A DNA stretch of 64,000 bases from Bacillus rhizoplanae (lineage in GTDB: Bacteria > Bacillota > Bacilli > Bacillales > Bacillaceae_G): positions 1 through 64,000 of the forward strand of contig NZ_CAKJTI010000015.1 of NCBI RefSeq assembly GCF_917563915.1, read 5' to 3'. The first letter of the stretch is position 1. Each line of letters begins with the position of its first letter. The notes under the pieces are model-generated. The model was not told the DNA's origin and ran no database searches. It saw only the letters and a list, made by a program, of their open reading frames with translations. Shown one piece after another: positions 23,604 to 40,962 of this stretch. Made by a program: the position numbers and the translations under genes.

Positions 23604-23767
23604 ATAGGCCCTCCTTAATTAAATGATACCTAAATATAAGATATTTTACTAAAAGATATTGAAGAAATTGTGCAGGGCGCTATGTGTTTTCTCGTTTTTG
23701 TCTCTCCATAATTTCTTGATAATTGTTCTATATAATAATTACGAACAAATTGGGGGAGGGATTTTTT

Positions 23768-25423
23768 ATGAAGAGAACGGTATTAACGGGGATTTCAATC
23801 GTAGCAATTTCTTTAATTGCTGCATGTTCTGCAACTACAAATACAGCAAGTGATCATAAAAATATGAACGATAAAAAGACCACACAGGCTGAAACAGCAA
23901 CAAAACCGTTACAAGTGATAAAAGGACCTGAAGTCACATTAGTGGCCAAAGAAGAGAAACAAAAATTAAGTAATGGTGTTGTTGTTCCAGTATGGACATT
24001 TAATGGCTCGTCCCCTGGACCAGAGATTCGTGTGAAGAAAGGTGACAAAGTTAAGGTTACATTAAAAAATGAACTATCTGTACCAGTATCTATTCATTGG
24101 CATGGATATCCTGTTCCAAACAATATGGATGGAATTCCAGGAGTAACACAAGATGCAATTGAACCGGGGAAAAGTTTTACGTATGAATTTGAAGCAAACG
24201 TACCAGGAACGTATTGGTATCATTCACATCAAGATTCTGTTAATCAGCTAGATCGAGGGCTGTATGGTTCTCTTGTTGTAGAAGATACAGATGAAAAGTA
24301 TGATAAAGATTACACATTAATGTTAGATGAATGGGTAACTGATAAAAAAGAAATTGATAAACAAATTAAGGAAATGACAAAAGGGAAAACAGAAAAAGTA
24401 GATGGTGATAAGTCTAGTATGGATCATGGAAATATGGAAAAGCATGATGATATGAACGGTATGGATCATTCTGGTATGGACATGGGAGGCGATAAAAAAG
24501 ACTCCGGTAATATGAAAGGCATGGATCATGGAAATATGAATATGGAAGGTCATAATATGAGTATGTATGATCTATTCACAATCAATGGGAAAAGCGGGGA
24601 TTTAATAGAGCCGTTGAAAGTAAAAAAAGGAGATAAAGTTCGACTTCGATTTATCAATGCTGGTTACTTATCACACAATATCCATGTTCATGGTCATGAT
24701 ATAAAAGTAATTGCAACAGATGGCCAGCCAATAAATGATCCAAAGGTTGTAAAAGACGAAGTGATTTCAATCGCACCGGGTGAACGTTATGATGTCGAGT
24801 TTACAGCGAATAATCCTGGGAAATGGTATGTTGAGGACCATGGAGAAGGAAAAGGTGTAAAAGGAATGAAAGCTGTTATTGAGTATGATGGCAGCAAAGA
24901 TATGAAAGATAAAGCGAATGAAAAAGAAAAACTTCCAACATTAGATATGACGAAATATGGTTCTAAGAAATTAGGAAGCTTCACATTAGATCAGCAATAT
25001 AATGCCACATATACAATGGATTTGAATACAGAAATGAATGGCAATGGAATGGTATATACAATTAACGGAAAAACATTTCCTAATATTGATCCAATTCAAG
25101 TGAAAAAAGGCGATTTAGTAAAAGTAAAATTAGTAAATCGTTCTAAAATGGATGATCATCCGATGCATTTGCACGGGCATTTCTTCCAAGTATTAAGTAA
25201 AAATGGAAAACCAATAGAAGGTTCTCCGATTGTAAAGGATACATTAAACTTGAAACCAGGAGAAGAATATGAGGTAGCATTTGTAGCAAATAATCCAGGC
25301 GAATGGATGTTCCATTGTCATGATTTGCATCATGCATCTGCCGGGATGGTCACAGAAGTGAAATATGAAGATTATAAATCTGATTATGTTCCAAACCCTA
25401 ATATTCCTAATATGCCAGAGTGA
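23768..25423 (+). CDS. Multicopper oxidase lipoprotein with Met/His-rich insert
   Basis: A 551-residue multicopper oxidase anchored outside the membrane: lipobox LIAAC with Cys20. Copper motifs are complete: IHWHGYP, WYHSHQD, HPMHLHGH and FHCHDLHHASAGM. Between the first and second cupredoxin domains there is an insert of about 50 residues full of MDHGNM-type repeats (Met, His, Asp, Gly), as in Cu(I)-oxidising enzymes such as CueO and staphylococcal Mco. It probably oxidises Cu(I) to less toxic Cu(II) at the cell surface. RBS GGGGGAGGG. It heads the copper island; its terminator is split by an IS. Confidence 0.85.
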   Translation: MKRTVLTGISIVAISLIAACSATTNTASDHKNMNDKKTTQAETATKPLQVIKGPEVTLVAKEEKQKLSNGVVVPVWTFNGSSPGPEIRVKKGDKVKVTLKNELSVPVSIHWHGYPVPNNMDGIPGVTQDAIEPGKSFTYEFEANVPGTYWYHSHQDSVNQLDRGLYGSLVVEDTDEKYDKDYTLMLDEWVTDKKEIDKQIKEMTKGKTEKVDGDKSSMDHGNMEKHDDMNGMDHSGMDMGGDKKDSGNMKGMDHGNMNMEGHNMSMYDLFTINGKSGDLIEPLKVKKGDKVRLRFINAGYLSHNIHVHGHDIKVIATDGQPINDPKVVKDEVISIAPGERYDVEFTANNPGKWYVEDHGEGKGVKGMKAVIEYDGSKDMKDKANEKEKLPTLDMTKYGSKKLGSFTLDQQYNATYTMDLNTEMNGNGMVYTINGKTFPNIDPIQVKKGDLVKVKLVNRSKMDDHPMHLHGHFFQVLSKNGKPIEGSPIVKDTLNLKPGEEYEVAFVANNPGEWMFHCHDLHHASAGMVTEVKYEDYKSDYVPNPNIPNMPE

Positions 25424-28690: not shown

Positions 28691-28769
28691 ACATGTGATG
28701 CTATAATCGATATACCTAGGTTAGGTGTTGTTAAATCTGGGTAAGAATAGGTAATAAGAAGGTGATAAA

Positions 28770-29075
28770 ATGAATCATGATGAAAATGAAGAAAGGTCTA
28801 TGCATAGATCACAAAAAGAACAAGAACAAATAATTAATAGACTTAAACGAATTGAAGGACAAGTTCGAGGAATTCAAAAAATGGTTGAAAATGACCGTTA
28901 CTGTGTGGATATTTTAGTACAGATTTCAGCAATTAATGCTGCTATGAAAAAGGTCGGTATGAGTTTACTAAAAAATCATACCAGTCACTGTGTATCCAAT
29001 GCGATAAAAAATGGGAATGGTGAGGAATCAATCGAAGAGTTAATGGCAGTGTTTGAACGTTTCTCAAAATCATAA
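28770..29075 (+). CDS. csoR: Copper-sensing repressor CsoR (set 1)
   Basis: A 101-residue CsoR/RcnR-family protein; apo-CsoR tetramers block copper genes until Cu(I) binds. The Cu(I) ligands are present: Cys in NDRYCVDIL, and His and Cys in NHTSHC. RLKRIEGQVRGIQKMV is the conserved first helix. GAAGGTG precedes the ATG. It opens the acquired-looking copper gene set; a terminator follows, and ATACC/GGGTAT operators stand before its neighbours. Close to the other CsoR at 38017. Confidence 0.85.
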   Translation: MNHDENEERSMHRSQKEQEQIINRLKRIEGQVRGIQKMVENDRYCVDILVQISAINAAMKKVGMSLLKNHTSHCVSNAIKNGNGEESIEELMAVFERFSKS

Positions 29076-29083
29076 TGTAGTAT

Positions 29084-29113
29084 AGCAAGCCGGTTTATTA
29101 ACTGGTTTGTTTT
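29084..29113 (+). terminator. Terminator after csoR (set 1)
   Basis: CAAGCCGGTT pairs with AACTGGTTTG using two G-T pairs, followed by seven T residues. Confidence 0.7.
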
Positions 29114-29124
29114 TTTATGTTGAA

Positions 29125-29143
29125 ATACCTAATGGGGGTATAG
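29125..29143. promoter_or_regulatory. CsoR-type operator before the broken csoR-like gene
   Basis: ATACCTAATGGGGGTATAG has the ATACC...GGGTAT arms found at the other sites; about 115 bases before the csoR-like start. Confidence 0.5.
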
Positions 29144-29257
29144 TAAATTCGTGTTAGAAAGACATTAGTTTCTAGTTAGTACAATATGTCAATTTATGTT
29201 TATGAGTATCAATAAAAAAGAGCAAAATAAAAAATCAAGTAAATAGGAGAGGTGTTT

Positions 29258-29568
29258 ATGAACGCTAAGGAAACATGTTGTAATACAAGAAATATGGATG
29301 GAAATTATCCAGAAGAAATTCAAAACAATTTAATTAATAGAATAAATAGGATTGAAGGGCAAGTGAAAGGCATAAAAATATGATTATGAAAAAAACTTAT
29401 TGTGATGATATTTTACACCAAATATCTGCAGCACAAGCTGCATTAAGTTCAGTTTCACGTTTGTTATTAGAAAGTCATATAAATACATGTGTGATTGAAA
29501 GATTGAAGCGAGATGATCCAGAAATAATAAATGAGCTTTTAAAAACAATTTCTAAAATAACAAAATAA
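29258..29568 (+). pseudogene. Frameshifted CsoR-family repressor gene
   Basis: The first frame reads MNAKETCCNTRNMDG... to NRIEGQVKGIKI then stop; the next frame, overlapping, begins MIMKKTYCDDILHQISAAQA and continues to LLKTISKITK. Adding one A to the run GGCATAAAAATATG (about 29374) would join them as GIKNMIMKKTYCDD, a complete family member. The copper ligand pattern (YC, ESHINTC) is kept. It is a real one-base loss or a sequencing error in a short A-run. Confidence 0.75.
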
Positions 29569-29587
29569 ATTATTAAATGCCTATTGA

Positions 29588-29606
29588 TTACCATAGGGGG
29601 GTATAG
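29588..29606. promoter_or_regulatory. CsoR-type operator before copZ (set 1)
   Basis: TTACCATAGGGGGGTATAG, one good half-site (GGGTAT) and a weaker left arm, 50 bases before the copZ start. Confidence 0.45.
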
Positions 29607-29655
29607 TAATATTGGTTTATAATCAAAATCTTAACTACTCCAAGGAGGAATTATA

Positions 29656-29862
29656 ATGGAAAACGTAACATTACAAGTTGAAGGTATGTCTTGTGGTCAC
29701 TGTGTAAACTCTATCGAAGGGAATGTTGGAGCTTTAAATGGTGTTGAAAATGTAAAGGTTCATTTAGATAAAGGGAGTGTAGAAGTAAAATTTGATTCTT
29801 CGGTCGTTACTCTGAAAGATATTTTAGCTGTAATTGAAGACCAAGGTTACGAAGTTCAATAA
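29656..29862 (+). CDS. copZ: Copper chaperone CopZ (set 1)
   Basis: A 68-residue heavy-metal-associated domain protein that carries Cu(I) to CopA. GMSCGHC gives ligands Cys13 and Cys16; ends DQGYEVQ as usual. RBS AAGGAGG. It is separated from copA by about 95 bases that hold another operator, so the two may be separately promoted. Confidence 0.9.
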   Translation: MENVTLQVEGMSCGHCVNSIEGNVGALNGVENVKVHLDKGSVEVKFDSSVVTLKDILAVIEDQGYEVQ

Positions 29863-29920
29863 TAAATTATTATGTATAATCGGGATCGTACTATAATGGT
29901 ACGATTTCTTTCACGAAAAA

Positions 29921-29940
29921 TATACCCCTAGTGGGTATAT
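29921..29940. promoter_or_regulatory. CsoR-type operator before copA (set 1)
   Basis: TATACCCCTAGTGGGTATAT is the best-formed site in the window: arms ATACCC and GGGTAT around CTAGT. It lies 17 bases before the copA start codon. Confidence 0.65.
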
Positions 29941-29956
29941 GACAGGGGTGAATGAA

Positions 29957-32377
29957 ATGAATAGACAAAAAGAGACCACTCTCCAAATATCAGGAATGAC
30001 ATGCGCAGCTTGTGCAAACAGAATTGAAAAAGGGCTAAAAAAAATTGAGGGCGTAGAAGATGCAAATGTTAATTTCGCGCTTGAAAAAACACAAATCAAA
30101 TATGATCCGGATAAAACGGACATAAAGGAATTTAAAGAAAAAGTCCAATCTTTAGGGTATAACATTGTAAGCGATAAAGTTGAATTTGATATTACTGGAA
30201 TGACATGTGCAGCCTGTGCAAATAAAATTGAAAAACGTTTAAACAAGTTAGATGGGGTTGAAAAAGCAACCGTTAACTTTGCGTTAGAATCAGTTCTTGT
30301 GGAATATAACTCTAATCAAGTTTCTATTCCTGACATGAAAGAGGCAATCAAAAAGCTTGGCTATGCACTTGAACAAAAGCAAGAAAAAATGGGAGAACAA
30401 GTAGACCATCGTCAAAAAGAAATTGAAAAGCAACAAGGAAAGCTTATTTTCTCTCTCATCTTATCAGTCCCACTGTTATGGGCAATGGTGAGTCATTTTG
30501 AATTTACACGTTTTATTTGGTTACCGGATATGTTTATGAATCCATGGGTACAATTAGCTCTCGCAACACCAGTTCAATTTATTGTTGGGAAACAATTTTA
30601 CGTTGGAGCTTTTAAAGCATTAAGAAATAAGAGTGCAAATATGGATGTACTTGTTGCGCTAGGTACTTCAGCTGCTTATTTCTATAGTCTTTATTTAAGT
30701 TTCATGTCGATTGGTTCAAATGCTCATATGGTAGATCTATATTACGAAACAAGCGCTGTTCTTATTACATTAATTATATTAGGTAAACTGTTTGAAGCGA
30801 AGGCGAAAGGTCGTTCATCTGAAGCAATCAAGAAATTGATGGGATTGCAGGCGAAAAATGCAACGGTTGTTCGCAATGACCAAGAGATGGTCATTCCAAT
30901 TGAAGAAGTATTGGCAGGCGATATTGTTTATGTGAAGCCAGGTGAAAAAGTACCGGTTGACGGTGAAATTGTTGAAGGAAGATCAGCACTTGATGAATCC
31001 ATGCTAACTGGTGAAAGTATTCCGGTTGACAAAGCAGTTGGAGACACTGTCATTGGTTCAACTATTAACAAAAATGGTTTCTTAAAAATAAAAGCAACAA
31101 AAGTTGGAAAAGATACAGCGTTAGCTCAAATTATTAAGGTCGTTGAAGAAGCACAAGGCTCAAAAGCACCAATTCAACGTTTAGCTGATGTTATCTCAGG
31201 TATATTTGTTCCGATTGTCGTTGGGATAGCTATAGTAACTTTCCTTGTTTGGTATTTTGCTGTTAGTCCAGGAGAATTTGCAGTTGCTCTTGAAAAATTT
31301 ATTGCCGTTTTAGTTATCGCTTGTCCTTGTGCACTTGGTCTTGCAACGCCAACTTCTATTATGGCTGGATCAGGTCGTGCGGCAGAATTCGGTATTTTAT
31401 TTAAAGGTGGAGAGCACCTTGAAACGACACATCGATTAGATACAATTATTCTTGATAAAACAGGTACGGTTACAAATGGTAAACCAACTTTAACAGATGT
31501 TATTTTAGCAGAAGGTATCGATAAAACTGAGTTTCTACAACTGGTTGGTGCCGCTGAGAAAAACTCAGAACACCCACTTGCCGAAGCAATCGTCGAAGGT
31601 ATTAAAGAAAAAGGGATTGTGTTAGGATCTTCCGATACTTTTGAAGCAATTCCTGGTTTTGGAATACAATCAACAGTTAACGGTAAAGAGTTATTAATTG
31701 GTACACGTAGACTGATGGCGAAAAATAACATTGATGTACAAAATGAATTATCTAAAATGGAGAATTTAGAAAAGCAGGGTAAAACAGCTATGCTAGTTGC
31801 CATTGATCATCAATATGCAGGTATTGTGGCAGTAGCAGATACAGTTAAGGATACATCAAAAGAAGCGATTTCTCGTTTACAAAAGATGGGATTAGATGTA
31901 GTTATGATAACAGGCGATAATACCCAAACAGCGAAGGCTATCGCCGATCAAGTTGGTATTAAGCATGTTATCGCTGAAGTTTTACCAGAAGGTAAAGCAG
32001 AAGAAGTGAAAAAGCTTCAACAATCCGGTAAAAAAGTAGCCATGGTTGGGGATGGAATTAACGATGCTCCTGCATTAGCAACAGCTGATATTGGTATGGC
32101 GATTGGAACAGGTACTGATGTAGCGATGGAAGCTGCAGATATTACTCTTATCCGAGGCGATTTAAATAGTATTGCAGATGCTATTTATATGAGTAAAATG
32201 ACGATTAGAAATATTAAACAAAATCTTTTCTGGGCCCTTGCGTATAACTGTATAGGTGTTCCAATAGCGGCAGCCGGTTTCTTAGCTCCATGGTTAGCCG
32301 GTGCAGCGATGGCGTTTAGTTCTGTATCAGTTGTTCTTAACGCATTAAGATTACAGAGAATTAAGTTAAAAGCTTAA
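29957..32377 (+). CDS. copA: Copper-exporting P1B-type ATPase CopA (set 1)
   Basis: An 806-residue Cu(I) efflux ATPase. Two N-terminal metal domains have GMTCAAC at Cys16/19 and Cys84/87; the membrane CPC motif is at 456-458 ([10 protein letters not shown]), the phosphorylated Asp500 is in DKTGT, and TGES, SEHP and GDGIND are present. Eight membrane helices expected. ATG at 29957 preferred (AGGGGTG upstream) over an in-frame codon at 29939. Paralogous to the CopA at 38341; both look intact. Downstream lies a His-rich anchored protein only 22 bases away. Confidence 0.9.
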
Positions 32378-32399
32378 TAATAGGAAGGAGGGAGTACGT

Positions 32400-33215
32400 A
32401 TGAAACGTAGCATAATGATTTGGGCAATTTCGGGTATTGTGTATCTTGGAGTAGTTATCGCGGGATACAGTGTGTATGCCAGTGTGAATCCAAAAAAAGA
32501 TGAACACATAAATCATAAAGTTGACAATCAGAATGCAGACAAGAGTCATAATGAACATACAAATCATGGGGCAAATGAAGTAAGCGAGGTTACACCAAAA
32601 GTGTCATATGCTAATGGAGAAATTACAATTGAATTAAAAGACAAAAATAATAATGCTCCTGAACTGGAAGTTTCTCATGAAAAGCTCATGCATTTAATTG
32701 TAGTTAGTTCAGACTTAAAAGAATATCATCATTTACATCCGGAAGAAAAGAACAAAGGAGTATATTCACAGAAGTTCAATTTGCCCGACAATTCTTATAA
32801 AGTATTCGTTGATATAAAACCGAAAGATTTAAATTATGTAGTAGAGCCTATTCAGTTACATGTAGGTGAAGCGCATAAGGAACAGCATGTAAATGACTTA
32901 GTTGTCGATACAGATTTTACAAAGACAATAAACAATCAAGCAATTGAATTAACAACTAGAGAATTTGAAGTGAACAAAGAAATTAAACTTAACTTTGATG
33001 TGAAAAATAATAAACCAGAACCATATCTAGGAGCTTTAGGGCATGTGGTCATCCTAGATGAAAAAGGTGAAAAATTTATCCATGTTCATCCGATTTCAAA
33101 TGATAAAACAGTGTTTGAAACTCAATTTAACAAGCCAGGTGTATATAAACTTTGGGCTGAATTCAAGTTTGGAGGGCAAGTAAATGCCTACCCATATGTT
33201 ATAGAAGTAAAATAA
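32400..33215 (+). CDS. His-rich membrane-anchored extracytoplasmic protein in copA operon
   Basis: A 271-residue protein with an N-terminal membrane helix (about 5-27), a His/Asn/Lys-rich linker (HINHKVDNQN, SHNEHTNHG), and two beta-rich domains. Repeated motifs LMHLIVVSSDLKEYHHLHPE and FIHVHPIS suggest metal-binding histidines, a pattern seen in copper-cluster proteins with an FixH/YtkA-like fold. RBS GGAAGGAGGG, 22 bases after copA, so it is probably co-transcribed. A surface copper-binding role is inferred. Confidence 0.7.
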   Translation: MKRSIMIWAISGIVYLGVVIAGYSVYASVNPKKDEHINHKVDNQNADKSHNEHTNHGANEVSEVTPKVSYANGEITIELKDKNNNAPELEVSHEKLMHLIVVSSDLKEYHHLHPEEKNKGVYSQKFNLPDNSYKVFVDIKPKDLNYVVEPIQLHVGEAHKEQHVNDLVVDTDFTKTINNQAIELTTREFEVNKEIKLNFDVKNNKPEPYLGALGHVVILDEKGEKFIHVHPISNDKTVFETQFNKPGVYKLWAEFKFGGQVNAYPYVIEVK

Positions 33216-33220
33216 GAAAC

Positions 33221-33253
33221 GAAAAGCCACGCAAGTTTTCTGCATGGCTTTTC
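33221..33253 (+). terminator. Terminator after the copA operon (set 1)
   Basis: GAAAAGCCACGCA pairs with TGCATGGCTTTTC; six-base loop; T-rich 3' side. Confidence 0.75.
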
Positions 33254-33373
33254 ATATTATTTTAGAGCTAGAAACTTAATTTATAAGACAAGAAAAGTAA
33301 CCTTAATAAATATATGAAAGGTTTGATTATAACAAATTGTTTTAGAAAATCGCTCAATGGAGGATGATTAGTA

Positions 33374-33636
33374 ATGAGAAATACGCAACTTGAACTTTAT
33401 ACTAGGCCTACTTGTTCAGACTGTAAAGCTGCAAAAGAGTTTCTTTCTGAGAATATGATCTCAGTAAGCAATCATTTAAAGAAGAAGAACTGATAGCTGT
33501 AACTGGCAAAAGAATTGTTCTAGCTTTCGTGTTTAAAAAGAAATCTTTATTAGGATTTATGAGTAAACCAAAAGTAATTATCGGTTTTGAAAGGAATCAA
33601 AGTGAAATAAAAACTTTACTTAGCATTAGAAAGTGA
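33374..33636 (+). pseudogene. Broken glutaredoxin-like gene
   Basis: The first frame (MRNTQLELYTRPTCSDCKAA...) has the CxxC redox site TCSDC and stops after about 39 codons; the second frame continues as EEELIAVTGKRIVLAFVFKK and GFMSKPKVIIGFERNQ to 33636. The break lies about 33460-33490. The two parts are the two halves of a glutaredoxin-like fold. The ATG has GGAGG 11 bases upstream. A short deletion with frameshift is the likely cause. Confidence 0.65.
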
Positions 33637-33705
33637 AGATATAAAAACGACTGAAGTTGTTTTTTATCATTATAAACTTAAAAATATAAAACAACAGCCT
33701 ATATT

Positions 33706-33722
33706 ATACCTAACGAGGGTAT
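33706..33722. promoter_or_regulatory. CsoR-type operator before the siroheme-reductase-like gene
   Basis: ATACCTAACGAGGGTAT has the same arms as the copper operators and overlaps a likely -10 region (TATAGTATAAT at 33720-33730). It suggests copper control of the next two genes. Confidence 0.55.
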
Positions 33723-33777
33723 AGTATAATTAGATTGTAAACAAATATGAAATAGAAAAAAGGATGTGAAGCCTAGA

Positions 33778-34407
33778 ATGGAACCAAAAGAAACAATGGT
33801 CAAATTAGCCGTAAACGGTGGAATATCATTTGGTGCAAAATTAAATGCCAAACAACTTTCTGTAATTGCTGAGTATATGAATGATGGTGATGAGATAGAA
33901 TTAACAACCTTCCAACAGCTGTACATCGAAGTACCTAAAAGTAAGTTAGGACTAGTGGAAGAAAAATTTAAGGAAGTTGGTTTGTCCTGTTACCCGATAG
34001 GGAATTTTGTAAAAAGTTTAAGAACCTGTAACTTTTGTAAAGGTGCAGAAGAAGAAGGTATGCCAGTTGCAATTGAATTAAATAAGAGGATAGCTGGGAA
34101 GTCGGTACCTTTTACAGTTCGACCTGCATACACTGGATGTCCAATTGGATGTGGTGAACCCCTTGTTAATGATATTGGAATTATGAAAATAAGAAACGGA
34201 TACAATCTATATTTTGGTGGTAAAGCAAAAGGGATGGATGCACAAGTGGGTACGTTATTTATGGAGCAGTTAATTCCTGAAAAACTTTATGAAGTGGTAG
34301 AAAAAATCATTGATATTTATGCTGAACATGGAAAAAAGAGAGAACCTTTCTTCAAATTTATTAATCGTTTTGGATTAGATAATTTGAAAAGTCAAATTGT
34401 TGATTAA
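33778..34407 (+). CDS. Nitrite/sulfite reductase-like half protein with Fe-S/siroheme cysteines
   Basis: A 209-residue protein made of one ferredoxin-like half domain (1-70) and one NIR/SIR domain (about 75-200). Cysteines C84-x2-C87 (RTCNFCKGA) and C121-x3-C125 (TGCPIGCGEP) fit a 4Fe-4S/siroheme site. Full nitrite or sulfite reductases have this unit twice, so it is a short, single-unit form, perhaps working as a dimer. The start at 33778 is preferred over GTG 33766, which nearly touches the RBS. The thioredoxin 49 bases downstream may share its transcript. Substrate unknown. Confidence 0.65.
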   Translation: MEPKETMVKLAVNGGISFGAKLNAKQLSVIAEYMNDGDEIELTTFQQLYIEVPKSKLGLVEEKFKEVGLSCYPIGNFVKSLRTCNFCKGAEEEGMPVAIELNKRIAGKSVPFTVRPAYTGCPIGCGEPLVNDIGIMKIRNGYNLYFGGKAKGMDAQVGTLFMEQLIPEKLYEVVEKIIDIYAEHGKKREPFFKFINRFGLDNLKSQIVD

Positions 34408-34456
34408 ATGATTAGAGTGAAAAACTTACATTTTTATTTTTACGGAGGGATTATAT

Positions 34457-34771
34457 ATGTTGAAAGAAATCAATTTAAATGAACTTGAACAACTAGTAAA
34501 AGAAAGAAGCGAATCCATTGTATTAAAATTTACGGCAGATTGGTGTCCTGGGTGTAGACAATTAGCTCCAATTGTTGAGGAGGTTTCAGAACAACTAAGT
34601 GATCAAATAGTATTTTTTGACGTTAACGTTGACAAAGAAATTGATTTAGCACAAAAATTTAGTGTAATGAGTATACCTACGCTTGTGGTATTAAAAAATG
34701 GAGAAGAAGTAAATCGTATTACTGCACCAGCTCCCAATGAAGATTTTATAAAAAGTTTTGTGCAACAATAA
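34457..34771 (+). CDS. Thioredoxin
   Basis: A 104-residue thioredoxin with the active site ADWCPGCRQ (Cys30, Cys33), the cis-Pro in MSIPTL, and FFDVNVD before it. The CPGC variant differs from the usual CGPC of the housekeeping thioredoxin, so it is probably a dedicated partner, perhaps for the preceding reductase-like protein. RBS ACGGAGGGA. No signal peptide, so it is cytoplasmic. Confidence 0.85.
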   Translation: MLKEINLNELEQLVKERSESIVLKFTADWCPGCRQLAPIVEEVSEQLSDQIVFFDVNVDKEIDLAQKFSVMSIPTLVVLKNGEEVNRITAPAPNEDFIKSFVQQ

Positions 34772-35292
34772 TTATATAGTATCAATAACAAGAGACTTTG
34801 ATCCAATCATTGTGTCTTACAAATGATTATTTATTAAGTATAAATAATCATTTTAAAAGTGTAAATGAAAGGATTTTAAGTTATAGATATACTACTCTTA
34901 TGTAAGAGAAGACTCTAATTTATTGATTATATAATATAATGGAGTCTTTTTCTTTATCATTTATATGTAATTATCTGTATTAAATAATGTCTGTAGTATA
35001 ATAAAATATGGATATTATTACTTAATTATCTCTTAATGTTTTTCTATTATTATATCTAGTTTGAAAAGGAGAGAGTGTTTAATGGAAAATTAAAGATGTT
35101 TGATAAAGAGTTAACAGTACACAAAGTTTTTATAAAAATAGTGTGCTGATAAAAAATAATGATAAGCAAATAATATAAAAAGGTAAACCCTTCGTATGAC
35201 CAAGATGAGCTTACCTTTTTATAGTTAAATCTTATAAAATAATCATTGTTTAGTTAAATATGTACAAAAGCGAATCTTATTTTGTGATGTTA
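34772..35292. other. Gene-poor stretch with a possible gene-start remnant
   Basis: An imperfect hairpin AAGACTC.../GAGTCTT follows the thioredoxin gene (34914-34945). At 35067-35084 a strong RBS, AAAAGGAGAGAG, precedes ATG GAA AAT TAA, and a shifted frame runs on as MFDKELTVHKVFIKIV before a stop; it looks like the start of a lost or frameshifted gene. A terminator (35178-35222) follows. Nothing else seen. Confidence 0.4.
35178..35222. terminator. Hairpin downstream of the CcdA-like gene
   Basis: AAAAAGGTAA pairs with TTACCTTTTT across a larger loop, 70 bases beyond the stop codon of the minus-strand gene; either side could use it. Confidence 0.5.
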
Positions 35293-36018
35293 TTATCCCA
35301 AATAAAGAAAAGAATCATAGAGTCCTATCAAAATCATAAGGATACCCGCTAAGGTTTGAATCGTTTTTCCAGTTTTTCGGCTTTTTTTGATTAATGTACC
35401 ATCTAGTCCAAGATATGAAATAATAACTACTAATACAATAATAGGAATAGCAGTTCCTGCCGCGAAAAATGTTGGAAACCAATACCCGTACTTAGATGAT
35501 AAAGATAAGGGGATAAGTGTTCCAAAAAATAGAACAAACATAGTAGGACAGAATGCTAGAGAAAAGAAAAATCCCATAAAAAATGAACCGAGTTCTTTTG
35601 GTTTATTTATAGTTTTGGAAGGAAAAGAGAAAGAACCTTTTATCTTTATAACACCTATCAATATGAGCCCAATGAACATTAGCAAAGGACCTATAGTTTT
35701 ACGTAACCAAGGAAAATATAAAGTTAATGTTTGTTGAGCTTCTTTTCCTAATACCCATACGAATAAGCCAAGTGATGTAAAAGCCACTATTTTTCCTAGA
35801 AGAAATAATAATATATGTTTCCATGAAATTCCTTGTTGTAAGGATTGATTTCCATAGATTGTCATAGCGCTAATGTTTCCTGTTAATTGACAGGGGGCAA
35901 GGGTACCTACTAATCCTAATAAGAACGCAAATAAAATAGGTATTGATCTAGTAGAATTTGCGATGTCCATAAAGGGGGACATTAGTTGATAACTCCATTC
36001 ACTAATTGTTGAAAACAC
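35293..36018 (-). CDS. CcdA/DsbD-like transmembrane protein (TauE/SafE-type)
   Basis: A 241-residue membrane protein with about six helices. LGLVGTLAPCQLTGNI and FFSLAFCPTMFVLFFGTLIP carry the two conserved Pro-Cys/Cys-Pro motifs of CcdA/DsbD-type thiol-electron transporters; related proteins are listed as sulfite exporter or cytochrome c biogenesis proteins. It may move reducing power across the membrane. GTG start at 36018 with AAAGGAAAA upstream. It forms a unit with the lipoprotein gene upstream at 36089-37093 (70-base gap). Confidence 0.7.
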   Translation of the reverse strand: MFSTISEWSYQLMSPFMDIANSTRSIPILFAFLLGLVGTLAPCQLTGNISAMTIYGNQSLQQGISWKHILLFLLGKIVAFTSLGLFVWVLGKEAQQTLTLYFPWLRKTIGPLLMFIGLILIGVIKIKGSFSFPSKTINKPKELGSFFMGFFFSLAFCPTMFVLFFGTLIPLSLSSKYGYWFPTFFAAGTAIPIIVLVVIISYLGLDGTLIKKSRKTGKTIQTLAGILMILIGLYDSFLYLG

Positions 36019-36088
36019 GTTTTATTTTCCTTTCTAAATTATATTTGAGAAATAAAAGTGTTATTTCATTTTGTTTTAGCACTTTAGA

Positions 36089-37093
36089 TTAGTTAAATAC
36101 TAATGTGCCATTTTTAGTGATCTGTTTCCACGTTTTCCCGTCATCAGTAGTAAGAAATACATTTGCCTTAATCGTAGCAAAAACTATTTCAGATGGATTT
36201 TGAGGGTTTTGTGAAATATACATAATTTGATCTTTAGAATCTAAAGGTGGAGTTTGTAAGTCTGTACTTTGATTAGTAGCCAGTGATTGTTTAGTTAGCC
36301 CTTGTTGTTTTTGATCTGTGATATAAGAGTAAATAATATCCTCATTTCCAAATGTTAATGCAGTTGTTTCTTGTGATTTAGAGAACAATTTAAAGGTATT
36401 ACCGTAGTCAGTAGATAAATAAATTCCATTTTTTGTGCTCATAGAAACAACGCTAGATTTATCAGGATGTATAGCAAATGAACTAATTACACTTGAGAGC
36501 CCATCTAACTTGCTTTGTTTCCATGTACTTCCGTTATCTGTACTAAAATAAAATCCACTTTTTAGTTTAGAATTCGGGCTTTCATTATACACATAGACGG
36601 TTTCGTTATTATATCCTACAGCAAGATTATGAAAATCAGATTCTCCATAAAACGCTAACGTTTCAAGAGTTTTTCCACCATCAGTACTTTTAGTTAAACC
36701 TAAAGGATTTTTTAAATTTGAGGCTTGTTCAGGATGACCACTCGCAAAGAATCCATTCTTTGTAGCTTGGAATCCCATATAATCATGTTTTTGATTAATT
36801 GTTTCTAGCCATTTTCCATTTTGATAAACTTTTATCCCATTGTGAGTTGCAATTGAAATTCCTGGTAAGTTTCCAGGATATCCAATACCATGAATATGTT
36901 CGATTTTTCCAGATGAAATTTCTTTATAGAAATCTTGAGGAACAGTATTAGATGTTTCTTTATTTTTTTGACCAGAAGTTTGTTGGGATTGGGAAACTTT
37001 TTCTTTATTAAGTGATGTTTCTTGTCCATTAGAACAGGCTGCTACTGTAAAGATGGATGTAATAGCTAAACTGCTGATTAGAATTTTTCGCAA
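36089..37093 (-). CDS. BNR/sortilin-like repeat lipoprotein (F510_1955-type glycosylhydrolase-like)
   Basis: A 334-residue exported lipoprotein: signal peptide with lipobox TVAAC (Cys20), a Ser/Gln/Asn-rich linker, then a beta-propeller-like domain with Asp-box repeats (KSTDGGKTLE, FSTDNGSTWKQ, LSTDYGNTFKL, LTTDDGKTWKQ). HIHGIGYPGN near the start is a family feature. TTG start with AAAGGAGA upstream. It is probably co-transcribed with the CcdA-like gene. The role in copper or redox handling is inferred from position only. Confidence 0.7.
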   Translation of the reverse strand: MRKILISSLAITSIFTVAACSNGQETSLNKEKVSQSQQTSGQKNKETSNTVPQDFYKEISSGKIEHIHGIGYPGNLPGISIATHNGIKVYQNGKWLETINQKHDYMGFQATKNGFFASGHPEQASNLKNPLGLTKSTDGGKTLETLAFYGESDFHNLAVGYNNETVYVYNESPNSKLKSGFYFSTDNGSTWKQSKLDGLSSVISSFAIHPDKSSVVSMSTKNGIYLSTDYGNTFKLFSKSQETTALTFGNEDIIYSYITDQKQQGLTKQSLATNQSTDLQTPPLDSKDQIMYISQNPQNPSEIVFATIKANVFLTTDDGKTWKQITKNGTLVFN

Positions 37094-37196
37094 AGGTATA
37101 TTCTCCTTTCTAATATATGGTTAACGCCCTAAGTATAATAGATGATTATCAAGAAATTATGGAGAAGTAAACAGGAGCGTTAATCGTTTGTAAGTA

Positions 37197-37748
37197 CTAG
37201 TTTTTATGTATATGTTGCTCATATTGTGAAGAATTTGGTGAAGTATGTTCTGGGAACGTTATGAAAACGGTTAGAAGAATTCCGATGCTAACTGAAAGTA
37301 AAAATAGAAATCGGCGGTGAATATAAGAAGAATAAGTTTCTGATAAGAATTGAATAATACATGACGTAGTAATAGTGATTGTAAGCAAAATACTAATAAG
37401 AAGTATACTGTGTGCTTGTTGCGCATTTAACATTTCCGTAATCATAGCCCCCATCATACCTGCCATCAATCCGGAGAACATGCCTTCTAAAGCAGAATAT
37501 AGATGAAAGCGGAGCCCAATTAAAAGCCCAATTATGCCACTAATCAAAATAGAAAGCAAAGTAGAAGATAACAAGTTACCTTTAAAGATAATACCAAAAT
37601 AAAGTCCTATGCTTAATCCTATGCTCATGCTAAAAGACATCACAAATACCATATACTCCATTAGGGTACCTTTAGATTTAGAAATGTATGCTGCAACAAT
37701 AACTAAGATAAAACAAAGTGTTAGGGTAGTTAACGTATAAGTTGACAT
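37197..37748 (-). CDS. Hypothetical integral membrane protein
   Basis: A 183-residue protein with about six hydrophobic segments, a glycine/methionine-rich middle (FSGLMAGMMGAMITEML), and a His-ending tail (YEQHIHKN). Not recognised. Start at 37748 chosen because GGAGGT lies seven bases upstream. It could form a unit with the two genes downstream (gap about 100 bases). Met and His content is compatible with a metal role, but that is not established. Confidence 0.55.
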   Translation of the reverse strand: MSTYTLTTLTLCFILVIVAAYISKSKGTLMEYMVFVMSFSMSIGLSIGLYFGIIFKGNLLSSTLLSILISGIIGLLIGLRFHLYSALEGMFSGLMAGMMGAMITEMLNAQQAHSILLISILLTITITTSCIIQFLSETYSSYIHRRFLFLLSVSIGILLTVFITFPEHTSPNSSQYEQHIHKN

Positions 37749-37946
37749 AGTGATACCTCCCTGTCCTTTCATTCACTTCATCATATGTACAAATCCAGAG
37801 CTTTTATGCGTATATAAATCTGCAAAATATCTGCATAATTTAAGAAAGGTAATGAAAATAGTTGTGTCGATAAAAATGCATACAAGCGCGTGTTTGCTTG
37901 TATGTATTTTCTTTGAAAAAATTTCAAAAAATAGGTATATAAACAG

Positions 37947-37975
37947 TTGCAATATATACCCCATACCCGTATAAT
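37947..37975 (+). promoter_or_regulatory. Promoter with CsoR-like site before csoR (set 2)
   Basis: -35 TTGCAA (37947-37952), 17-base spacer, -10 TATAAT (37970-37975). The spacer holds TATACCCCATACCCGTATA, so copper-responsive repressor binding here would block RNA polymerase. Confidence 0.6.
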
Positions 37976-38016
37976 GTATATAAAGATTAACAATTACAAT
38001 AACCGAGGTGATATTG

Positions 38017-38328
38017 ATGGATCATTGTAAAGATAATGAAATAAATCAAAAAATGGTTCCTCGAACAGAAGAGGAAATTCAAAGTGTTATAAAACGTTTA
38101 AAGCGTATTGAAGGGCAAGTACGTGGTGTTCAAAAGATGGTAGAAGATAACCGATATTGTGTTGATATTTTAATTCAAATTTCAGCGATTAACGCAGCTT
38201 TAAATAAGGTAGGCTTTTCTTTATTGGAGCGTCATACTAAACATTGTGTAGCAAAGGCGGTTCGTGAGGGAAACGGGGATGAATCGATTCAAGAATTAAT
38301 GAGCGTTATTAAGCAGTTTTCAAAATAG
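38017..38328 (+). CDS. csoR: Copper-sensing repressor CsoR (set 2)
   Basis: A 103-residue CsoR with Cu(I) ligands Cys in DNRYCVDIL and His/Cys in RHTKHC, and RLKRIEGQVRGVQKMVED as first helix. Start at 38017 with GAGGTG six bases upstream; GTG 38008 is inside the RBS. It lies 12 bases before copA and is probably the core csoR-copA-copZ operon of the B. cereus group, with the other set being extra. Confidence 0.9.
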   Translation: MDHCKDNEINQKMVPRTEEEIQSVIKRLKRIEGQVRGVQKMVEDNRYCVDILIQISAINAALNKVGFSLLERHTKHCVAKAVREGNGDESIQELMSVIKQFSK

Positions 38329-38340
38329 GAGGGGTATAGG

Positions 38341-40737
38341 ATGGATAAACAAAAACATGTTACGCTTGGAGTGACAGGAATGACATGTGCAGCTTGTGCC
38401 AATCGGATTGAAAAAGTGTTAAATAAAATGGATGGGGTAGAAGCTAACGTAAACTTAGCAATGGAAAAAGCAAGTATCAAATATGATTCTTCTCAGCAAG
38501 AAATTTCGAATATAAAAGAGAAAATTGAGAAGTTAGGATATGGCGTATCAGCAGAAAAAGTTACTTTAGATATCGAAGGGATGACATGCGCAGCCTGTGC
38601 GAATCGAATTGAAAAAGTGCTAAATAAAATGGAAGGTATTTCGAATGCAACGGTTAATTTAGCTACAAACAGTGCTGTTGTAGAGTATAACGAAGGGTTA
38701 GTATCTACAGAAAACATTCTTGAAAAGATAAAGAAAATAGGATATAAGGGACAAATCCGTAACGAAGAGGTAGATCGTTCAGAAAGAAAAGAGGAAGTTA
38801 TTAAGGAGAAAAAGCGTCAACTTATGATTTCTATTATTTTGTCCTTACCTTTACTCTATACAATGCTTGGACATATGCCGTTTGATACAGGAGTACCAAT
38901 ACCGCATATTCTTATGAATCCTTGGCTTCAACTTTTATTAGCAACACCAGTTCAGTTTTATATTGGAGGACACTTCTATATAGGTGCTTATCGGGCTCTT
39001 CGAAATAAAAGTGCGAATATGGACGTTTTAGTTGTATTAGGAACATCAGCAGCTTATTTTTATAGTTTATATGAAACTTTGAAAACGTTAGGAAATCCTG
39101 CATACACTCCTGATTTATATTTTGAAACAAGCGCGGTTTTAATTACGTTAATTTTGGTCGGAAAGTACTTTGAAACAATGGCAAAAGGGCGTACAACAGA
39201 AGCAATTTCAAAATTGTTAAGTTTACAGGCGAAAGATGCGCTTGTTGTTCGTAATGGTCAAGAGGTGCGAGTGCCGTTAGAAGAAGTTGTGATTGGAGAT
39301 ATCATGATTGTAAAACCCGGTGAAAAAATACCGGTGGATGGTATCGTGATTTCAGGGGCATCTTCTGTTGATGAATCTATGATTACTGGAGAATCTATTC
39401 CGGTGGATAAAAAAGAAGGAGATTCTGTTATTGGTGCGACGATTAATGCAAATGGGATGCTGACCATTCAAGCTGAAAAAGTTGGAAAAGACACAGCGTT
39501 AGCGGGCATTATTAAAATTGTTGAAGAAGCGCAAGGATCTAAAGCACCTATTCAGAGATTAGCAGATATCATTTCGGGTATTTTTGTTCCTATTGTTGTA
39601 GCGATTGCTTTAGTTGCCTTTATTGTATGGTATTTCTTTATAACACCAGGAGATTTACCAAAAGCATTGGAAGTAGGAATTGCGATTCTTGTCATTGCAT
39701 GTCCGTGTGCACTAGGTTTGGCTACACCAACTTCGATTATGGTTGGTACGGGAAAAGGAGCAGAAAAGGGTATTCTCTTTAAAGGAGGTGAATATCTAGA
39801 AGGGACGCATAAAATCAATGCAGTGTTGCTGGATAAAACAGGAACCGTAACAAAAGGGAAACCAGAAGTTACCGATGTATTAGAATTTCAAGAAGGTATG
39901 CTGGATTATGCGATTTCAGCTGAAAGTGCTTCTGAACATCCGTTAGCCCATGCGATTGTTGAATATGGAAAACAACATGAGATAAATTTGAAAGAGTTAC
40001 AGCACTTTGCAGCAATTCCAGGCCAGGGGCTTGAAGCGGATATTGAAAACAAAAAAGTTCTTGTTGGAACACGTAAATTGATGAATGAACAATCTGTAGA
40101 AATTTCACAGCATGAAGAGGTTATGAAAGAACTAGAGTATCAAGGTAAAACAGCGATGCTTGTCGCAATTGATGGGGAAATGGCTGGAATAATCGCTGTT
40201 GCTGATACTGTAAAGGAAAGTTCGAAGGATGCAATTCAAACACTCAAGCAAATGGGAATTGAAATATACATGGTAACAGGTGATAATAAACGTACAGCTG
40301 AAGCGATTGCAAAGCAAGTTCATATTGACCATGTATTTGCCGAAGTTTTACCAGAGGATAAGGCTAAAATTGTAGCGGATTTACAAAAACAAGGAAAGAG
40401 AGTAGCAATGGTAGGTGATGGTATTAATGATGCACCGGCTCTTGCAAAATCTGATATTGGTATGGCAATTGGAACAGGTGCAGATGTAGCAATTGAAACT
40501 GCAGATGTTACGTTAGTTGGTGGTGACTTATCACATATACCAAAAGCAATTGAGTTAAGTCGTAAGACGATGAAAAATATTCGTCAAAACTTGTTTTGGG
40601 CTTTATTCTATAATGCAATCGGCATTCCTGTAGCGGCGTTTGGATTATTAGAGCCTTGGGTAGCTGGAGCGGCGATGGCATTTAGCTCTGTATCTGTTGT
40701 GACGAACGCACTTCGTTTGAAACGCGTTAAAATATAA
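38341..40737 (+). CDS. copA: Copper-exporting P1B-type ATPase CopA (set 2)
   Basis: A 798-residue Cu(I) efflux ATPase with two metal domains (Cys16/19 and Cys83/86, GMTCAAC), CPC in [25 protein letters not shown] and GDGIND. RBS AGGAGGGG directly before the ATG, 12 bases after csoR. Clearly a paralog of the protein at 29957. All catalytic motifs are present in both. Confidence 0.9.
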
Positions 40738-40758
40738 ATTAGTATGGAGGAATTTAAT

Positions 40759-40962
40759 ATGACTATCACATTAAACGTACAAGGAATGACATGTAATCAT
40801 TGCAAAATGGCAGTAACAAATGCACTTACAGAGTTAGCGGGAGTACAAAATGTAGAAGTTAACCTGCAAGAGGGAACTGTAAATGTAAAATATGATGAAG
40901 CAAAAGTAGATGTAGAAAAAATGAAAGAAGCTATTGAAGATCAAGGATATGACGTGCAGTAA
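40759..40962 (+). CDS. copZ: Copper chaperone CopZ (set 2)
   Basis: A 67-residue Cu(I) chaperone; GMTCNHC gives Cys12 and Cys15, ends DQGYDVQ. Start at 40759 follows GGAGGAATTTAAT. Last gene of the csoR-copA-copZ operon, 21 bases after copA. Confidence 0.9.
   Translation: MTITLNVQGMTCNHCKMAVTNALTELAGVQNVEVNLQEGTVNVKYDEAKVDVEKMKEAIEDQGYDVQ

Follow-up and report, generated by a model that had tools for sequence, protein, structure and literature searches.

We analysed a 64,000-nucleotide stretch of Bacillus rhizoplanae contig NZ_CAKJTI010000015.1 (positions 1 to 64,000 of the forward strand; hereafter the window), in which a gene for a single-unit protein of the nitrite/sulfite reductase family (hereafter the NIR_SIR gene) lies within a copper island, behind an exact CsoR-type operator. 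Based on comparison with relatives in other genomes, we propose that this 213-residue protein has branched off from the sulfite/nitrite reductase fold, does without siroheme, belongs to the Bacillales CsoR regulon and has a thiolate-metal or redox role with glutaredoxin, a reading to which we give an even chance.

An earlier note on positions 33374–37748 had listed, downstream of copA, a broken glutaredoxin gene, a reductase-like gene with a copper-type operator, and genes for a thioredoxin, a CcdA-like protein and a BNR lipoprotein. Reading frames, Pfam and NCBIfam confirmed the presence of all these parts in the window. However, the CcdA-like and BNR genes lie on the minus strand, together with a third gene for a 191-residue protein, and the island is wider than that segment, including csoR at 28770, a second csoR-copA-copZ unit (38008–40962) and a multicopper oxidase gene (23723–25423). 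The features are as follows.

28770..29075, plus strand: csoR (PF02583), with the Cu-type ligand pattern C...H-x3-C
29142..29568 (start approximate), plus strand: second csoR paralogue, frame-broken (PF02583 on the downstream piece)
29656..29862, plus strand: copZ-type HMA copper chaperone (PF00403)
29939..32377, plus strand: copA (TIGR01511, 631 bits vs a cut-off of 397)
32400..33215, plus strand: protein of 271 residues, rich in His, its N-terminus signal-like (no match in Pfam or NCBIfam)
33374..33636, plus strand: YruB-like glutaredoxin gene, broken into two pieces that are read in different frames (three-frame translation)
33706..33722, plus strand: CsoR-type operator ATACCTAACGAGGGTAT (exact ATACC-N7-GGTAT)
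33766..34407, plus strand: single-unit NIR_SIR protein, 213 residues, ‘nitrite reductase’ (PF01077, 58.8 bits vs a cut-off of 27)
34457..34771, plus strand: CPGC thioredoxin (PF00085), 49 bp downstream of the NIR_SIR gene
35293..36018, minus strand: DsbD_2/CcdA-like membrane protein (PF13386)
36089..37093, minus strand: F510_1955 BNR/Vps10-type lipoprotein (NF045728, 285.8 bits vs a cut-off of 175)
37197..37772, minus strand: 191-residue protein, membrane-like by look, first gene of the minus-strand run (no Pfam or NCBIfam match)
38008..40962, plus strand: second csoR-copA-copZ unit (sequence reading and NCBIfam)
23723..25423: multicopper oxidase, upstream part of the island

Copper-linked neighbourhood of the NIR_SIR gene

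A genome scan yielded 127 confirmed NIR_SIR relatives, and counts were made on the best 80 of the 127 loci, some of which are near-copies of one another. A CopA-type ATPase gene was found within 10 kb of the NIR_SIR gene in 47 of the 80 loci (‘CopA-type’ being a similarity cluster that may include other P1B ATPases); a CsoR-type gene was present in 45 loci and a CopZ gene in 44. Of seven copper-island markers, 71 loci had one or more. By chance about 0.7% would be expected, which is the share of sequence lying no more than 10 kb from a TIGR01511 gene (baseline with E values up to 1e-150); none of the 45 siroheme-synthase genes in the same 50 genomes lay within that distance.

The NIR_SIR gene sits close behind copA or before csoR-copZ-copA. 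Among the family members is BPOF4_RS19555 of Alkalihalophilus pseudofirmus OF4. The same operons were observed on independently annotated plasmids, in the orders PIG-L–ATP-binding cassette (ABC) transporter–NIR_SIR–csoR–copZ–copA, copper-binding protein–ATPase–NIR_SIR–glutaredoxin and copZ–ATPase–NIR_SIR, where the records name the product nitrite reductase or nitrite and sulphite reductase 4Fe-4S domain protein. The earlier note had linked the reductase-like gene to copper, and this conserved neighbourhood bears the link out.

An open reading frame of the glutaredoxin cluster was detected in 16 of the 80 loci, and a glutaredoxin gene lies directly downstream of the NIR_SIR gene in eight. An intact YruB-like glutaredoxin gene adjoins it in L003 and L008, and is found within about 3 kb in L026, L029 and L037. 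In the window, the frame from 33374 runs for 39 residues, the CSDC motif among them, before it meets a stop, and the remainder of the YruB-like glutaredoxin lies in another frame to 33636. Thioredoxin, found near the NIR_SIR gene in one of the 80 loci, is not a conserved neighbour.

Another arrangement, found in L036, L038, L039, L046, L049, L054 and L127, is an operon of PIG-L deacetylase, peptide/nickel-type ABC transporter, NIR_SIR gene and csoR, with copZ and copA coming next in several loci. In L036 and L038, PIG-L opens the ABC-transporter operon, its listed start lying 39 bases after an exact TACC-N7-GGTA box. The PIG-L protein of L046 scored 51.9 bits with BshB1 vs a cut-off of 182.5. 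This operon is possibly a copper-linked thiol or metallophore uptake system. The cluster labels YdhK, DUF326, YncE, Opp and hut used in this survey are names that we presume from the look of the sequences, some of them repeated in the record annotation.

CsoR-type operators

The exact box at 33706 places a CsoR-type operator at the promoter of the NIR_SIR gene, for which the earlier note had listed a copper-type operator. Immediately before the gene, this operator borders on a promoter-like second hexamer, the end of which is at 33705 or 33707, in surroundings where promoter matches hardly exceed those of shuffles (40 vs 31.4). Exact ATACC-N7-GGTAT boxes also occur at 29125 and 29922 in the cop region, and the second copA contains one at 39328. 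The shorter TACC-N7-GGTA occurs five times in the window, compared with 0.33 expected from shuffles: at 29126, 29589, 29923 and 33707 in the cop region, and at 39329 inside the second copA, this last one probably by chance.

To count boxes in related loci, the region from −250 to +40 of each gene was scanned with at most one mismatch. A CsoR-type box was detected upstream of the NIR_SIR gene in 31 of the 80 loci; of 987 other genes from these loci, 30 had one. For this operator count only, a non-redundant repeat was made, in which 19 of 38 upstream groups carried a box; shuffles gave 0.52 per 80. Ten of the 33 loci lacking a nearby CopA-type gene still have a box, which is exact in L027, L055 and L057. 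The box-less loci are partly explained by a NIR_SIR gene close behind a plus-strand copA (11 loci) or behind the gene for the 271-residue protein (seven loci). Most of the neighbouring CsoR-type proteins retain the C-H-C pattern as judged by eye, a few listed ones being truncated or deviating, and control by a persulfide-sensing CstR is therefore thought less likely.

Retention of the NIR_SIR gene without siroheme synthesis

Siroheme synthase (TIGR01470) was absent from seven of the 50 carrier genomes; in a second set of 23 carriers, nine lacked it and one had a 42-residue remnant with a stop. The test covered 73 genomes, namely the 50 and 23 new ones (two of 25 handles repeated earlier genomes), several of which are drafts, and NAD_binding_7 (PF13241) was set aside as too general for judging siroheme synthase. 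Seventeen of the 73 carriers have neither a whole siroheme synthase nor a uroporphyrinogen-III methyltransferase over the cut-off. The weak methyltransferase matches in the 17 genomes are frames of about 300 residues, presumably RsmI-type methyltransferases, and the sirohydrochlorin ferrochelatase PF01903 was absent from all seven of the 17 that were tested for it. At the family level, the host is not always able to make siroheme.

The NIR_SIR gene is the sole gene of its kind in 14 of the 17 siroheme-less genomes, the other three having two places each. Each of the 17 has one or more copies that are open across the matched span and retain CNFCKG and C-x3-C. The stops flagged for G033, G448 and G454 fall outside the matched spans of their loci. 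In G461, which is named Chryseobacterium and is maybe mislabelled, its loci looking like Bacillales, a second copy (L061) is frame-broken. The genome with the siroheme-synthase remnant, G467 (L062), keeps two NIR_SIR places. The intact copies indicate that the NIR_SIR protein is retained where siroheme cannot be made, which is the strongest result of the comparison. Since a good part of the carriers cannot make siroheme, the protein has probably been repurposed in copper stress.

Motif, fold and phylogenetic position of the NIR_SIR protein

The window NIR_SIR gene starts at GTG 33766 or ATG 33778. By sequence family (PF01077) and fold, its product belongs with the sulfite/nitrite reductases, and the closest folds to its structure model (predicted local distance difference test score, 90.6) are Fsr and other sulfite reductases. 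In place of the CX5C...CX3C cluster motif of siroheme reductases, the protein has CX2C (C88 and C91) followed by C125 and C129, and the profile alignment gives three residues fewer between the cysteines. C88-x2-C91 was conserved in 81 of the 81 members of the family alignment, and C125 is invariant in the same way. The siroheme-bridging position, C129, is Cys in the window protein and in 67 of the 81 members, and Thr in 14.

In a tree of every second row of a 60-row alignment and 40 other domains (six of which are family members), the sister group was the C-terminal domain of CbiH60-type enzymes; 28 of the rows were labelled CX5C, of which six are CX4C. The two share the half-reductase domain and the CX2C...CX3C spacing, and the CbiH60 domain, from an enzyme of anaerobic cobalamin synthesis, is reported to carry [4Fe-4S]. 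They differ in that the CbiH60 domain is fused to a cobalt-factor III methyltransferase (TIGR01466, in one of six checked), whereas the window protein stands alone and its family is found in copper operons. The small and single-unit siroheme sulfite reductases (alSir, Dsr-LP group I and AsrC) resemble the NIR_SIR protein in fold, in their unit of about 200 residues and in the C...C...C...C order, but the clostridia-type relatives that were compared have CX4C to CX6C, whereas the copper family has CX2C and occurs also in siroheme-less genomes. All Dsr-LP proteins are reported to share a siroheme-iron-sulfur motif (PMC3448663). The best NCBIfam match of the NIR_SIR protein, the C-terminal siroheme domain of NirB (TIGR02374), gave 74.5 bits, far below the cut-off of 578, and NirB, unlike the 213-residue protein, has about 800 residues with FAD/NADH parts.

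Proposed role of the NIR_SIR protein in copper stress

Comparison among genomes establishes the copper-operon neighbourhood, the CsoR-type operators, the CX2C plus C125, the siroheme-free retention and the sister position to CbiH60 and, for part of the NIR_SIR family, independence of siroheme. In the mechanism that we propose, copper would relieve CsoR repression, and the NIR_SIR protein would be made along with CopZ and CopA. The protein would hold a thiolate-bound metal site, most likely [4Fe-4S] as in the sister domain, of which the fourth ligand, C129 or E131, would be replaceable. As a small cytosolic electron or thiol redox partner of the adjoining YruB-like glutaredoxin, it may, together with the latter, keep protein or low-molecular thiols and copper reduced during Cu(I) export by CopZ and CopA. 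The BNR/CcdA operon on the minus strand would be a separate unit of the copper island, acting at the membrane and outside.

Several points weigh against this proposal. No CopA-type gene lies nearby in 33 of the 80 loci, and no box was found within the scanned region in 49; the latter include seven loci in which the NIR_SIR gene follows a YncE-like gene, and L050, L051 and L052, in which it lies 52–60 bp behind an operon that we take to be hut-like (histidine utilisation) from the look of the sequence. The operators of CsoR and of persulfide-sensing CstR are similar. Glutaredoxin is broken in the window and lies near the NIR_SIR gene in a minority of loci. Siroheme synthase is present in 56 of the 73 carriers, so that some members could still use siroheme; these 73 genomes are those of relatives, the genome of the window not being among them, and the window protein retains all four cysteines. 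Finally, both the cofactor and the copper induction of the NIR_SIR protein are predicted from comparison.

A different role for the same cysteines would be that of a Cu(I) sink or chaperone: the thiolates of CX2C and C125 would bind Cu(I) in a trigonal site, and the reductase fold would serve just as a scaffold. The third invariant Cys beside the CX2C, the dispensable fourth Cys, the gene order close behind copA or before csoR-copZ-copA and the lack of need for siroheme would all suit such a protein. We nevertheless consider it doubtful: the same CX2C is found in CbiH60-type domains, which have no known copper role, the family has no conserved His and, among Met residues, only M99 is common (65 of 81), and CopZ already fills the chaperone job. 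The two metal options, [4Fe-4S] and Cu(I), are indistinguishable from sequence; the sister domain in CbiH60 and an IspG-like subdomain make us favour [4Fe-4S]. IspG (GcpE) is an isoprenoid enzyme with a TIM barrel and a [4Fe-4S] domain; PDB searches gave no sequence match between it and the NIR_SIR protein.

A genuine small siroheme sulfite/nitrite reductase, which would replace a copper-inactivated enzyme or make copper-precipitating sulfide, appears improbable. Its family (PF01077), its likeness to Fsr and other sulfite reductases, the four cysteines of the window protein and the synthase of the 56 carriers would be expected of such an enzyme, but siroheme synthesis is missing with the gene intact in 17 of 73 carriers, the motif is CX2C and not CX5C, and the bridging Cys is lost in 14 of 81 members. 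The siroheme reading of the reductase-like protein, put forward in the earlier note, is not supported in view of these 17 genomes, and a siroheme reductase was rejected as the family function for the same reason.

Returning to the siroheme-independent offshoot, we judge it an evenly balanced prospect that an entire and widespread family, at present labelled ‘nitrite reductase’, represents a novel type of copper-stress protein, in which a siroheme-free half-fold of sulfite reductase serves under CsoR control as a metal or thiol-redox protein alongside glutaredoxin. If so, it would to our knowledge be the first reductase-fold protein known in copper homeostasis. The database names nitrite and sulfite reductase would then mislead for the NIR_SIR copper family, and nitrogen or sulfur metabolism may be misread into genomes without it. 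Copper biology would gain a concrete, unstudied component, made beside CopZ and CopA as copper attacks thiols and Fe-S clusters. The operons, plasmid-borne and chromosomal, would lend themselves to genetic testing. The csoR-copZ-copA operon of Bacillus subtilis shares the regulator, operator type, chaperone and pump with the window and, as far as we know, has no such reductase-like gene. Among the matches listed by literature searches on the NIR_SIR gene with CsoR or copper and on small sulfite reductases, the titles and abstract openings contained no description of the family.

The CcdA-like and BNR genes

The CcdA-like protein is a member of the DsbD_2 family (PF13386). Among 17 sequences, that of the window included, 16 have C43 and 13 have C157. 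Its plasmid relatives are annotated as ‘sulfite exporter TauE/SafE’. The BNR lipoprotein scored above the curated cut-off for F510_1955 (NF045728; 285.8 vs 175 bits), and the invariant residues of 14 sequences include H68, H84, M106, H120, H155, W95, D104 and D153. This His/Met/Asp/Trp set suggests, by its look, a metal site and not a glycosidase, and the name F510_1955 ‘glycosylhydrolase’ is probably misleading. The literature search on F510_1955 listed one paper, on an Anoxybacillus genome. Since His and Met are conserved, and the lipobox cysteine C20 (12 of 14) is the only largely conserved Cys, the BNR protein is no obvious thiol acceptor.

The CcdA-like gene has 25 places in the 50 genomes (its two fragments in G050 tallied as one), of which 8 are no more than 10 kb from a Cu-ATPase gene; for F510_1955 this is true of 14 of 33 places. 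These rates may not hold elsewhere because the genomes were selected for carrying the NIR_SIR gene. The two genes were at most 5 kb apart in 7 of the 25 CcdA places and at most 1 kb apart in four. In pBM69 of Bacillus methanolicus MGA3 and in a Sporosarcina plasmid they stand side by side, and in a Pseudomonas plasmid F510_1955 comes after a resistance-nodulation-division efflux set and a ‘copper-binding protein’. F510_1955 was absent from 14 control genomes. In three plasmid stretches, CcdA and BNR accompany other genes, and no NIR_SIR gene or stand-alone thioredoxin is annotated in the gene tables, which are incomplete. CcdA and BNR recur in copper islands, yet they form no fixed unit with the NIR_SIR gene, since both were present in only 5 of the 80 NIR_SIR loci; thioredoxin, CcdA, BNR and CsoR were found together in a single locus, L011.

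The earlier note had joined these genes into one copper-induced trans-membrane thiol relay, from thioredoxin through the CcdA-like protein to the surface BNR lipoprotein, which is very improbable: all parts lie within 4.4 kb in the window, the CcdA/BNR pairs above are close or adjacent and the three plasmid stretches have a TlpA/ResA-type annotation at a distance of up to about 9 kb, but thioredoxin accompanies the NIR_SIR gene in one locus of 80, the genes lie on opposite strands and the BNR protein, with its conserved His and Met, is no obvious thiol acceptor. A single thiol relay for the whole region was rejected on the thioredoxin count and the opposite strands. A larger protein resembling the 191-residue one was observed in 14 of the 80 loci, in 13 of them on the strand opposite to that of the NIR_SIR gene.

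Other components of the copper island

Like the multicopper oxidase gene, a histidine kinase gene lies upstream in the window. Over 2.5 kb, the copA DNA shares 84.9% identity with locus L003 of Cytobacillus purgationiresistens. A plasmid search with 28700–40800 was uninformative on the origin of the island, because it returned only three short P-type ATPase matches. In L001, the reading frame of a related second csoR likewise ends early, as in the frame-broken csoR at 29142–29568.

The F510_1955 lipoprotein, with its conserved His and Met, and the His-rich 271-residue protein are further unnamed candidates of the copper island. Relatives of the latter, counted after their cluster, initially mixed with multicopper oxidases, had been separated from these, were found in 25 of the 80 loci, and seven His residues are invariant across 24 sequences. 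In L003, an N-terminus resembling that of the 271-residue protein is fused to a multicopper-oxidase-like protein.

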